Part shown: positions 6,509 to 30,270 of the stretch, piece by piece
How the letters are laid out: every line of letters begins with the position of its first letter
Position numbering within the stretch: the stretch's first letter is position 1
Virus record (IMG/VR): IMGVR_UViG_3300043427_003033
Coordinates: 1-34,290 of that record
Length of the DNA stretch: 34,290 nucleotides
Strand: one strand, 5' to 3'
From: a virus
Notes under the pieces: model-generated
Told to the model about the DNA's origin: nothing
The model's input: the letters and a program-made list of their open reading frames with translations, nothing else
The model's database searches: none
Made by a program: the position numbers and the translations under genes

Positions 6509-6518
6509 TATATTTATT
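6509..6518 (+). promoter_or_regulatory. ATATTTAT-class promoter-like motif
   Basis: TATATTTATT lies in the 25-base gap before the structural gene at 6530, ending 12 bases before its ATG. The same core recurs in front of other structural genes, the candidate small RNA and the spanin-like cluster. A late-promoter role is inferred from that distribution. Confidence 0.4.
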
Positions 6519-6529
6519 AATAAAAAGAT

Positions 6530-15039: not shown

Positions 15040-15056
15040 TAAAACGATAAAATAAC

Positions 15057-15070
15057 CTATATATTTATTT
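15057..15070 (+). promoter_or_regulatory. ATATTTAT-class promoter-like motif, first of two
   Basis: CTATATATTTATTT in the 74-base gap before the gene at 15114. A second copy follows 13 bases later. Low GC raises the chance background, so the call rests on recurrence in gaps. Confidence 0.35.
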
Positions 15071-15080
15071 TAAAAAATGA

Positions 15081-15090
15081 TATATTTATT
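15081..15090 (+). promoter_or_regulatory. ATATTTAT-class promoter-like motif, second of two
   Basis: TATATTTATT ending 23 bases before the ATG at 15114. This leaves room for a transcription start and short A-rich leader, so it is the better promoter candidate of the pair. Confidence 0.4.
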
Positions 15091-15113
15091 TAAAAGATTA
15101 AACTTAAAAAACT

Positions 15114-15779: not shown

Positions 15780-16781
15780 ATGGCTAATATTAATGTAGAA
15801 GTGGATTTAGGGACGGTTGGTTCCGATATTACAGGATACACCGTATCCATTTCTGGTTGCACTGGAGGATCTTGTGGTAGTGGATGTTCAAGTTTGTCAC
15901 CATCACAATTTAATGTAGATGATTTTCCGCAAATAATTAGTATTCCCGACAATACAGTATCTTTATTTGTCTTAGTTGATAGTGGACCGTGTTCAGGAAC
16001 AACACAATGTATATCAGTAAACATCGTTACACCAACACCAACTGTTACGATTACACCAACATTTACACCAACTATTACACCAACCGTTGAAGACGTGGTA
16101 ACACCGACTCCAACTGGAACTATAACACCGACTCCAACTAGAACTATAACACCAACATTAACAAACCCTGTTATATATACATTTAGTTTAGGATACAACG
16201 TTAGTACTGGAATCGATGCTTGTTCTGATTTCTTCAGTAGTCCAACAAACTACTACTCGTATAACCCACCACCGTTAGTTAACGGAACTATTTTATACAC
16301 AGGAAGTACATACCCATTAACAGGAAACGCTATAACAGGTTATTATTCTGATGGAACTAATTATGGTTATGTGCCAGGAAATAGTGGTGTGATTACTGAT
16401 TTAGCATCATGTCCAACGGTTACTCCGACCCCGTCAATTACACCAACCGTAACACCACCAATTTTAAATGAATTTTACATAGCTTCTCCTGTGGATAGAA
16501 GTTTAACCGGAACAACATATTGTTCTAGTCCGGGATATGTTATGTCTGGAGTGGTACTATCAGAATCTTCAACAATTTCGGGAATGTTATTTAATCCAAT
16601 ATATGATTCTAACGGTGATCCATTCATTGGACCAGGATCCCCATATGCGTATGCAATTAGTACCATACAATCTCAAAACACATTTGACCTTGGAGCGTGG
16701 AATTGGATTGAAATAGACTCAATGGGAGTTGTTACTGATGTGGGATTACAATCATGTAGTGGTGGAGGTGGACCAGTATAA
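15780..16781 (+). CDS. Fibre/adhesin protein with two Cys-bounded domains and Thr-Pro linkers
   Basis: A 333-residue protein. Residues 1-80 are a Cys-rich beta domain, and a Thr-Pro linker follows (about 84-128). Two related domains follow, separated by a second short Thr-Pro linker (about 212-227). Each begins with a Cys after a short strand (DACSDFF; TTYCSSPG) and closes with a GV(I/V)TD...SC motif (near 204-211 and 317-327). It ends in a Gly-rich tail. The layout repeats that of the two preceding fibre genes. Lack of a signal peptide fits a virion component. Likely another receptor-binding or decoration protein; the two-domain duplication is my reading of the pattern and was not tested by alignment. 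Confidence 0.6.
   Translation: MANINVEVDLGTVGSDITGYTVSISGCTGGSCGSGCSSLSPSQFNVDDFPQIISIPDNTVSLFVLVDSGPCSGTTQCISVNIVTPTPTVTITPTFTPTITPTVEDVVTPTPTGTITPTPTRTITPTLTNPVIYTFSLGYNVSTGIDACSDFFSSPTNYYSYNPPPLVNGTILYTGSTYPLTGNAITGYYSDGTNYGYVPGNSGVITDLASCPTVTPTPSITPTVTPPILNEFYIASPVDRSLTGTTYCSSPGYVMSGVVLSESSTISGMLFNPIYDSNGDPFIGPGSPYAYAISTIQSQNTFDLGAWNWIEIDSMGVVTDVGLQSCSGGGGPV
16029..16163 (+). repeat. Thr-Pro linker repeat in the Cys-domain fibre gene
   Basis: Codons for TPTPTVTITPT-type units, interrupted by an acidic VEDVV. A smaller Thr-Pro linker in the same gene spans roughly 16413-16460. Both separate predicted globular domains. Confidence 0.8.
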
Positions 16782-16788
16782 AATAAAA

Positions 16789-16799
16789 TTATATTTATA
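16789..16799 (+). promoter_or_regulatory. ATATTTAT-class motif next to the start codon
   Basis: TTATATTTATA ending four bases before the ATG at 16804, the same spacing as the copy before 15780. It fills most of the 22-base gap between two structural genes. Confidence 0.35.
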
Positions 16800-16803
16800 A
16801 CAT

Positions 16804-18983: not shown

Positions 18984-19601
18984 ATGAGCATAGATATTAA
19001 ATTTAAGAACAAACCAAAGATTTTAGGATTGGACATATCAACCAAAACCATAGGATTTGCATTATTCGACATTACGGGTTCAAAATTACTTGAACTTACT
19101 CATTTTTCCCCAAAAATAAAACCGCAACCTGAGGATAAGATTGAAGAGTTAATCAAAAAGGCGGATACATTTAAAAAACATCTTGAAGGTTATAAGGATA
19201 TGGGGATTACAAGAGTTATCATTGAGGAACCCCTATTACAATCTAATAACATTTATACAGTTGGTACACTTTTAAGATATAACACCTTAATTTTAAAAAA
19301 TTGTTATGATATTTTAGGAGTTTTACCAACGTTCATATCTACTTATAATGCAAGAAAATTTGCATTTCCTGATTTAGTTGGTAAAAATGATAAAAATAGA
19401 AATGTTTTATTTGGGGGATACCCAAAAGATATAGATAAAAAACATGTTATTTGGGAACATGTAAATTCAGTTTGTTCTGATGTTAATTGGTTATACGGAA
19501 AAACTGGTAACCTTAGAAAAGAAAATTATGATATGGCTGATGCTGCAACTGCGGTAATTGGTTATATTAATATGATAAAAGAAGAAAAAACATTTAAATA
19601 A
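18984..19601 (+). CDS. RuvC-like Holliday-junction resolvase (RNase H fold)
   Basis: A 205-residue protein with the RuvC pattern: ILGLDIST with Asp17 in the first strand, VIIEEPL with Glu81/Glu82, and DMADAATAV with Asp183 and Asp186 near the C terminus. These acidic residues fit the metal-binding set of RuvC-family nucleases, which cut four-way DNA junctions. It likely resolves recombination and replication intermediates before packaging, a job done in T4 by the unrelated endonuclease VII. The length is close to bacterial RuvC (about 170-190) with a somewhat larger insertion before the last motif. It sits between the structural block and the small RNA/primase region. The upstream gap holds TATATATTTTG just before the ATG. 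Confidence 0.8.
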   Translation: MSIDIKFKNKPKILGLDISTKTIGFALFDITGSKLLELTHFSPKIKPQPEDKIEELIKKADTFKKHLEGYKDMGITRVIIEEPLLQSNNIYTVGTLLRYNTLILKNCYDILGVLPTFISTYNARKFAFPDLVGKNDKNRNVLFGGYPKDIDKKHVIWEHVNSVCSDVNWLYGKTGNLRKENYDMADAATAVIGYINMIKEEKTFK

Positions 19602-19623
19602 TTTTTTTTTAAAATTATTTATG

Positions 19624-19635
19624 TTATATTTATTA
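19624..19635 (+). promoter_or_regulatory. ATATTTAT-class promoter-like motif before the small RNA
   Basis: TTATATTTATTA sits so that its ATATTTAT core ends seven bases before the GGACGGG that begins the predicted structured RNA. That is the spacing expected of a -10-type element to +1. It supports both the promoter reading and the RNA reading. Confidence 0.45.
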
Positions 19636-19640
19636 TTGTA

Positions 19641-19709
19641 GGACGGGACGTGTAGAAATACATGTTTAGTTGGTTCCCCGGGGAGTGGTGTACCCGGGGA
19701 TTTTTTTTT
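19641..19709 (+). ncRNA. Candidate small structured RNA
   Basis: About 70 bases, GC-rich against an AT-rich background, lying in the 140-base gap between the resolvase and primase genes. It starts GGACGGG. A 7-bp hairpin (19648-19654 with 19659-19665, one G-U pair) is capped by a GAAA tetraloop, and the RNA ends in a strong intrinsic terminator. No reading frame of note is present. A promoter-like motif lies seven bases upstream. It could be a trans-acting phage RNA or a decoy, or merely a leader/terminator region of the resolvase transcript. The structure is read by eye; expression is unproven. Confidence 0.45.
19675..19709 (+). terminator. Strong intrinsic terminator
   Basis: Perfect 8-bp GC-rich stem TCCCCGGG/CCCGGGGA (19675-19682 with 19693-19700), ten-base loop, then nine T residues. 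It is the strongest terminator in the window and separates the resolvase/small-RNA region from the primase operon. Confidence 0.9.
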
Positions 19710-19741
19710 GCAAAATTTTTTTCCTATATTAATAATTAACT

Positions 19742-20680
19742 ATGATGGAAAAGGAAATAGATTACTCGGGCGTTGTGGATATCTTGGAAGACATTTTTGG
19801 TGATTATAAATCCCATAATGACTACCGAGGACAAATTTCTTTTGATTGTCCTGTCTGTTCATATGAAATAAAAGGATTAGAAGATGGTGACGGAAAAGGT
19901 AATCTCGAGATAAACTATAAAAATAGTGTTTATAAATGTTGGGTATGTGCAGAATCACATGACACATACGGGTCATTATTTAAACTACTCAAAAAGTACG
20001 GAACATCTAAACAACTTAAAAAATATCAGTTATTAAGACCTGAAGATGTTGACTCACCTAAAAGAGTCTATAAACAAATAAGACTACCAAAAGAATTCAT
20101 ACCATTTAAAAATGCTAGTGTCGGTTTAAAATTAACACCACAATTTAAACAAGCTTGGAGTTATATTAAAAATAGAAATATTACCGAAGAACAAATAGAG
20201 AGATTCAATATTGGATTTTGTCATGAAGGTTTATATGAACATAGAATAATTATTCCATCTTACGATGGAGATAATAATTTAAATTATTTTATTGCTCGTT
20301 CATACTTGAGTAAGACAAAAATGAAATATAAAAATCCAGAAGTGGATAAGGAAAGTTTGTTATGGAACGAACATTTAATAAATTGGGACGAACCAATCTT
20401 TATTGTTGAAGGGGCTTTTGATTCTATATTTTTAAATAATTCAATTCCAATGTTGGGAAAATATATGACAAAAAACCTTTTTAATAGACTTTATGATTCG
20501 GCTAAAAAGATTATAATTGTTTTAGACCCAGATGCGTGGATTGATGCTGAAAAATTGTTTCATAAATTAAATTGCGGAAAATTAATGGGTAAAGTTTGGA
20601 TAGTTAAATTAGAGGGTGATAAAGATATTGCAGACTTAAAAGGTGATTTAAGTCAGCACGAAATAAAACAATTAGATTAA
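19742..20680 (+). CDS. DNA primase (zinc ribbon plus TOPRIM)
   Basis: A 312-residue protein; the start is either of two adjacent ATGs (19742 or 19745). A four-Cys zinc ribbon lies at the N terminus (CPVC at 36-39, CWVC at 66-69), as in primases that recognise template trinucleotides. A TOPRIM domain follows: IVEGAFDSIF near 221-230 supplies the catalytic Glu, and VLDPDAW near 258-264 the DxD metal site. No helicase domain is fused, so it resembles stand-alone phage primases (T4 gp61 style) rather than T7 gp4. It makes RNA primers for lagging-strand synthesis. It starts an operon that runs into the nuclease gene by a TAATG overlap. The partner helicase is not in this window. Confidence 0.8.
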   Translation: MMEKEIDYSGVVDILEDIFGDYKSHNDYRGQISFDCPVCSYEIKGLEDGDGKGNLEINYKNSVYKCWVCAESHDTYGSLFKLLKKYGTSKQLKKYQLLRPEDVDSPKRVYKQIRLPKEFIPFKNASVGLKLTPQFKQAWSYIKNRNITEEQIERFNIGFCHEGLYEHRIIIPSYDGDNNLNYFIARSYLSKTKMKYKNPEVDKESLLWNEHLINWDEPIFIVEGAFDSIFLNNSIPMLGKYMTKNLFNRLYDSAKKIIIVLDPDAWIDAEKLFHKLNCGKLMGKVWIVKLEGDKDIADLKGDLSQHEIKQLD

Positions 20681-29460: not shown

Positions 29461-30270
29461 ATGAAAAAATCAGTTATTATCAGCACTGAAGAAATACAAC
29501 AGTATATAAAAGATATTAGAAAGATTCCTGTAATTTCTCACGAAAGACAAGAAGAAATTTTTAAACAATTAAATAATAAAAACCTCGCCAAATCAGAAAA
29601 GAATAAACTTTTCAACGAATTAATAGTTGGTAATTTACGTTTTGTCATATCCGTTGCTAAGATGTACCAAAACCAAGGAATGGATATTATGGATTTAATT
29701 TCCGAAGGTAATATTGGTTTAATTAAAGCGGCAGAAAAATTTAACCCAAGTAGTGGTTTAAAATTTATTTCATATGCAGTATGGTGGATAAGACAATCAA
29801 TCATGGCATCTCTTAACGAGAACGCTAGGACAATTAGAATACCATCTAATTTAGTTCAGGAGGCACAAAAACAAAAAAAGAAAGATGAAATATTAGAAGA
29901 GGATAATTTTTTAGTTTCTGATGACCCAAGTCCGGCAAATAACCTACCATACTGTGTTGGTCTTTTTAGTGAAATAAATGAGGATGGGGATACTTTAATT
30001 GACGTGATACCAAATAGAGATGCCGATTCACCCGAACAATTTTTAAATTCAACCGAGGAAATTAAAAAGAAAGTAAATCTTATGTTGAGTGTTTTAGATG
30101 AAAGGGAAAAGATAATTATTATAAAATATTTCGGTTTGACGGGTGTTGAATCAAATTTAGATGATTTGGGAGAAGAATTTGGATGTACCAAAGAAAGAAT
30201 AAGACAATTAAAAGATAAGGCCATCAAAAAACTTAGAAATGAAAGTTTTGGTCTATTAAACTATTTATAA
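29461..30270 (+). CDS. Sigma-70 family RNA polymerase sigma factor
   Basis: A 269-residue sigma factor close in layout to Bacteroidota housekeeping sigma. Region 1.2-like sequence lies at about 8-36. A complete region 2 lies at about 56-120, with NLRFVISVAKMYQ, MDLISEGNIGLIKA and the -10-reading/melting segment KFISYAVWWIRQSI. A reduced region 3 follows (TIRIPSN at 124-130, then diverged), and region 4 runs from about 203 to 262 (LDEREKIIIIKYFGLTG, helix-turn-helix LGEEFGCTKERIRQLKDKAI). It should bind host core polymerase and redirect it to phage promoters, possibly the ATATTTAT class. The diverged region 3 fits a changed extended -10 or spacer preference. Its DNA specificity cannot be read directly. 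Confidence 0.85.
   Translation: MKKSVIISTEEIQQYIKDIRKIPVISHERQEEIFKQLNNKNLAKSEKNKLFNELIVGNLRFVISVAKMYQNQGMDIMDLISEGNIGLIKAAEKFNPSSGLKFISYAVWWIRQSIMASLNENARTIRIPSNLVQEAQKQKKKDEILEEDNFLVSDDPSPANNLPYCVGLFSEINEDGDTLIDVIPNRDADSPEQFLNSTEEIKKKVNLMLSVLDEREKIIIIKYFGLTGVESNLDDLGEEFGCTKERIRQLKDKAIKKLRNESFGLLNYL

Follow-up and report, generated by a model that had tools for sequence, protein, structure and literature searches.

Does the short gap between a resolvase gene and a primase gene in an uncultured phage hold a gene of its own? The gap lies in the IMG/VR virus fragment IMGVR_UViG_3300043427_003033. The whole analysed stretch of this record, 34.3 kb (34,290 nt), is called the window here. By direct reading the RuvC reading frame ends at 19601 and the primase reading frame starts at 19742, which gives a gap of exactly 140 bases, as the initial annotation of this DNA had said. 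That annotation also saw a GC-rich island in AT-rich DNA. Base composition bears this out: GC content is 56% for 19641-19701, 5% for the 39 bases before, 16% for the bases after and 31% for the whole window. The features of the locus are as follows.

18984-19601, plus strand: RuvC-like resolvase (phrog_159, E=1e-6), the usual upstream neighbour of the RNA
19625-19632, plus strand: -7/-10-like box TATATTTA, putative promoter of the RNA gene, 8 bases before the first G of GGAC
19641-19709, plus strand: structured small RNA of ~69 nt (CM R1 match at 19641-19706, 77.4 bits; covariation; fold z -3.3)
19641-19649, plus strand: conserved 5' motif GGACGGGAC, the 5' side of the helix-1 base (columns 2-8 96-100% conserved, n=52)
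19642-19671, plus strand: helix 1, made of GAC/GUU, a G-R mismatch, GGAC/GUUU and a covarying upper stem, with a GAAA cap at 19655-19658
19664-19673, plus strand: conserved linker GUUUAGUUGG (consensus GUUURGUUGG; columns 31-39 94-100% conserved except the R column)
19675-19709, plus strand: intrinsic terminator with an 8-bp stem, a loop and nine T; all 9 stem pairs covary in homologues
19685-19691, plus strand: terminator loop GUGGUGU; UGGUG is invariant in 52 main-family RNAs and GGUG is kept in diverged relatives
19725-19730, plus strand: TATATT box, putative separate promoter of the primase, just 3' of the terminator
19742-20680, plus strand: DNA primase of the DnaG type (phrog_47, E=1e-45; Pfam DNAG_N; 80 loci), the constant downstream neighbour

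The locus and its putative promoter

Among the gene families in the window are RuvC, the DnaG primase, an exonuclease, an SbcC/SbcD-like pair, a head maturation protease and a phage sigma factor. The protease is closest to those of huge metagenomic phages and Prevotella Lak phages (45-57% identity). For the primase the nearest named isolate is the Flavobacterium phage Immutovirus, at ~34% identity. Hence these large uncultured phages, with related contigs of up to 335 kb, likely infect Bacteroidota. The described 'moraphages' (PMC12619734) resemble them in habitat and gene list. No tRNA genes were found in the window. The 335-kb relative (G001, the L054 contig) carries four at 90452-91590 (Glu, Ser, Met, Thr), and none were found in two other large relatives.

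The RNA folds with an energy of -28.2 kcal/mol (z = -3.3), which none of 200 shuffled sequences equalled. Its ends probably lie at A19640 or G19641 on the 5' side and within the T-run on the 3' side. The core of hairpin 1, ACGUGUA-GAAA-UACAUGU (19648-19665), has seven base pairs, one of them G-U. This hairpin, a perfect 8-bp terminator stem and nine T had all been read correctly, but hairpin 1 is longer than noted: GAC/GUU and GG/UU pairs lengthen the stem to 19642-19671 around the G/R mismatch. The terminator pairs UCCCCGGG (19675-19682) perfectly with CCCGGGGA (19693-19700) over eight base pairs, followed by T9 at 19701-19709. It is the strongest terminator hairpin in the window.

A promoter-class motif had been placed seven bases before the first G, and ATATTTAT does end there, at 19633, ahead of G19641. 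The bare motif TATWTATT occurs 16 times in the window where 20 are expected. Without enrichment it is weak evidence. The upstream box gains weight because its position is conserved in homologues: a TATATTTA-type box, with variants, stands at the same spacing (~8 nt before GGAC) in 38 upstream sequences that are less than 90% identical to each other. The same upstream sequences show a weaker TTTTA-type block near -37. We take box and block together to resemble the TTTG/TAnnTTTG promoters of Bacteroidota. With a candidate promoter at a conserved position and, at the 3' end, an intrinsic terminator (8-bp GC stem and T9, nine covarying stem pairs), the RNA locus looks like a transcription unit of its own, predicted from sequence to be transcribed in infected cells.

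A GGCAAC block is also kept upstream of the RNA in homologues (equivalent to window 19580-19602, ~-49 from the RNA start). In some contigs it forms the last RuvC codons and in others it lies in non-coding DNA. It may belong to the RNA promoter. Elsewhere in the window, (A)TATATTTATTAA-type boxes precede structural genes (15044-15110, 6510-6527 and 16780-16803, with a tandem at 15058 and 15083). They may form a class of phage promoters recognized by the sigma factor that the phage encodes at 29461-30270.

Covariation, strand and conserved letters

We analysed covariation in two alignments, one of 39 rows made by sequence-driven MAFFT and one of 52 distinct rows fitted to the model. In the first, 97.6% of cells are paired, and 169 cells show changes on both sides compared to a shuffled mean of 46. 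In the second, 98.6% are paired, with 245 double-change cells compared to a mean of 69. None of 500 shuffles reached the observed value in either case. Shifting the partners by one to three columns destroys the pairing signal, and the collapse is already seen at one column.

Hairpin 1 covaries independently of the terminator. In helix 1 alone 98.8% of cells are paired, and its four upper pairs account for 63 double-change cells, with GC, AU, UA, CG and GU types all represented. By parsimony on the primase tree, these four pairs went through 5, 17, 13 and 10 changes of pair state, both sides in step. The covariance search against related phages that the initial annotation had proposed thus supports its central claim, and the outcome that would have spoken against it, only the terminator retained, did not occur. 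A chance GC-rich island is ruled out by the covariation of two helices and the pair-state changes on the primase tree. The island is a genuine structured RNA and a real RNA gene, whose fold was kept while most stem letters changed.

The wobble pairs identify the strand. Among the 52 sequences, 211 cells hold G-U or U-G and one holds A-C or C-A. Hence the plus strand is the structured RNA strand, and an RNA on the minus strand is ruled out. The RNA has no coding role: ATG is present in just 14 of the 52 homologous RNAs, a conserved reading frame is absent and the covariation is of the RNA type. Here, too, the earlier reading was right.

Conservation is concentrated outside the stems. Terminator loop columns 57-61 (UGGUG) are 100% conserved in the 52 sequences, compared to ~42-65% for the flanking stem columns. 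Among ~115 terminator hairpins in three phage contigs, GGUG occurs in the loop of this RNA alone, the usual loops being GAAA or T-rich. The loop GUGGUGU, the most conserved part of the RNA, was missing from the initial description, which emphasized the GNRA loop of hairpin 1 instead. That emphasis does not hold, as the cap varies between homologues (GAAA, GUAA, GCAA, (G)UUAAAA octaloops and UUUA) and GNRA is one of several interchangeable forms. The compact unit of promoter-like box, structured body and strong terminator stands without it.

Distribution beside the primase gene

A search with the primase yielded 80 loci. In all of the closest 75 the element lies upstream of the primase, complete from the TATATTTA box through the T-run. 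In the remaining five (L077-L081) the element is diverged. Scans with DNA patterns brought many further homologues, so that the family comprises ~100 or more IMG/VR contigs of up to 335 kb. It is kept across primases down to ~60% identity. In very diverged relatives (L238-L250, L283, L290) there is no relationship in helix 1 or the stems, and the loop is still (U)GGUG.

The RNA lies a constant ~95 nt upstream of the primase. At least 99 of 101 matches to a loop-and-terminator pattern are directly upstream of a primase gene; of the others, L189 is cut by the contig end and L344 is a chance match. Neither the pattern scans nor the loci examined contained the RNA away from the primase. About 20 large contigs (100-335 kb) were searched for further copies, with one confident copy per contig. 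One locus, L285, lacks the RNA, and its RuvC and primase genes adjoin each other directly.

The neighbourhood on the RuvC side is less fixed. In L098 and L179 the RNA is set apart from RuvC by ~840 additional bases, with its distance to the primase still ~95 nt. In L304, likewise, other DNA separates RuvC from the RNA, and the RNA remains beside the primase. L249 carries an enlarged RNA (2828-2957), in which an inserted CCAACC pairs with the GGUUGG linker and an additional hairpin (UUGUUGCCAG/CUGGUAACAA) precedes the terminator, whose loop is CACGGUGUAA.

No homologues were found in isolate phages, where only chance-level matches occurred (E about 4), and Immutovirus, Lak-B5 and four other large phage records gave no convincing match. 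As for bacterial carriers, 13 exact-pattern matches in GTDB genomes are chance matches. One of 198 Bacteroidota genomes gave a 31-bit match without the GGUG loop, which is consistent with chance given 198 genomes. This look-alike (L294, 1501-1566, on a Bacteroidota chromosome) consists of GGUUGGU and a terminator. On either side of it lie a gene resembling seryl-tRNA synthetase and a TPR-like gene, and it is probably a chance match.

Function and relation to known RNAs

What could such an RNA do? The locus is probably, though by no means certainly, an independent gene from which the phage would make a small RNA of ~70 nt, and this RNA would act in trans via its loop and linker. This reading builds on the conservation, folding, strand, covariation, single copy, primase synteny and separate primase promoter of the element. 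The promoter at ~19625-19632 would start the RNA at A/G19640-19641, and the intrinsic terminator would end it at 19701-19709. Of its two hairpins, the first would serve largely as a scaffold, given that its upper stem keeps its pairing although letters there and in the cap vary freely. Contact with a partner during infection, either a protein or another RNA, would be made by the parts that do not vary: the junction of GGACGGGAC and GUUURGUUGG at the base, and GUGGUGU in the loop of the terminator hairpin.

Several specific partners and structures were considered. At phage gene starts, examined in three contigs, sequences complementary to the loop or the linker show no enrichment and are mostly depleted. 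Pairing of the RNA with the primase start is not conserved among homologues, and the RNA overlaps neither RuvC nor primase, so that it does not act as an antisense RNA to an adjacent gene in the manner of OOP. A two-tier G-quadruplex was dropped as an option, since homologues do not keep the first GG tract.

The RNA was never found away from the primase, which would also fit a role in cis. The element could be an attenuator or leader of the primase, in which transcripts from the TATATTTA box reach the primase only if formation of the terminator is prevented, for example by a protein on the conserved loop or junction. A structured element followed by a terminator is classical attenuator anatomy, and both the constant distance and the loci in which the RNA stays with the primase despite intervening DNA after RuvC (L098, L179, L304) suit it. 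However, a TATA(TT/AT/CT) box stands 5-13 nt before the primase ATG, between it and the terminator, in 27 of the 34 distinct loci, compared to 4.7 in shuffles, and L285, which lacks the RNA, keeps this box. Hence the primase would not need transcripts running on from the RNA, which would make the RNA a separate unit that can be inserted, and not a primase leader. Furthermore, the sequence of the terminator stem turned over fully between lineages while the upstream half stayed constant. With terminator arms that differ completely, a conserved antiterminator pairing would be impossible. This leaves room for a switch worked by protein only, and overall we regard an attenuator as unlikely.

Alternatively, the RNA could be a replication element: a short G-rich transcript that primes an origin or forms an R-loop there, while the AT-rich DNA that follows is where the strands unwind. 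Such origin transcripts are known in T4 and ColE1. The RNA does lie within the replication module, and it is G-rich between DNA of 5-16% GC. But no turn in GC skew was found at the RNA in three large contigs, an intrinsic terminator would free the RNA from its template, and it is not obvious what a conserved terminator loop would contribute to priming. An origin primer is thus improbable. Like the attenuator, it stays alive because of the fixed primase synteny, which is kept even with DNA between RuvC and the RNA.

A third possibility is a specific form of the trans-acting small RNA that we prefer. The GUGGUGU loop and the GGUUGG linker may be a decoy that titrates an RNA-binding protein of the host or, through complementarity, one of its RNAs (tRNA CCA ends or 16S rRNA), and the RNA would then serve host takeover or counter-defence. 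CACCA is complementary to UGGUG. The conserved letters do lie in loop and linker and not in the stems. Phage decoys against small RNAs are known (PMC4104026), and Bacteroidota are rich in RRM proteins that bind single-stranded parts of small RNAs (PMC11697453). A complement of 5-6 bases, however, matches many RNAs by chance and leaves a statistical test without power, and we give this special case little credence.

Finally, the element could be no more than the usual promoter and terminator at an operon boundary, the RNA itself being meaningless. This would account for a terminator that also separates RuvC from primase, but it is highly improbable, since hairpin 1 covaries, the slide control counters an alignment artefact as the source of that covariation, and 5' motif, linker and loop are conserved across families with unrelated stems, none of which a plain terminator needs.

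The small RNA gene we favour belongs to a known kind. The OOP RNA of lambda also adjoins a replication gene. OOP, 24B_1 (PMC10732415) and the anti-sRNAs of EHEC (PMC4104026) are likewise short phage RNAs with their own promoter and an intrinsic terminator, and phage small RNAs have been reviewed (PMC12197685). In contrast to the OOP-like RNAs, the RNA described here is not antisense to its neighbour, has two covarying hairpins and a conserved terminator loop, and yields neither a sequence nor an Rfam match.

The Bacteroides small RNAs FopS and GibS, which are bound by RbpB (PMC11697453), are also short Bacteroidota RNAs ending in an intrinsic terminator. FopS is deposited in Rfam and forms a multicopy family with a single-stranded 5' seed and one terminator hairpin, whereas the phage RNA has a 5' hairpin, a single copy, seed-like letters in the terminator loop and no Rfam match. 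T-box and attenuation leaders share a structured RNA with a terminator upstream of a gene and a UGG motif, but the phage RNA lacks a specifier stem and an antiterminator, and a separate promoter lies downstream of it.

None of 4227 Rfam families matched in the window. The best matches below threshold, BSnc120 (21.5 bits, gathering 114) and NsiR1 (21.1 bits, gathering 39), also have two hairpins ending in a terminator and share only generic terminator features with it. No published description of this RNA was found in the open-access literature. With no Rfam family, isolate phage or convincing bacterial genome among its matches, the suspicion that it is undescribed gains ground: the family appears to be new, and its conserved terminator loop is unusual.

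For giant phages, and particularly for phages of Bacteroidota, the small RNAs are almost uncharted. Here a single RNA gene beside the primase was kept over large divergence with textbook covariation, and it illustrates that a terminator loop can hold the most conserved letters of an RNA. The model, the boundaries and the invariant letters provide a precise handle for RNA pull-downs and deletions. More tentatively, the RNA may represent a new class of phage regulator in which the terminator hairpin is the active site: the UGGUGU loop would bind a host factor while the stem drifts freely. If true, giant Bacteroidota phages of one clade would share this terminator-loop RNA as a means of host takeover or of replication control.
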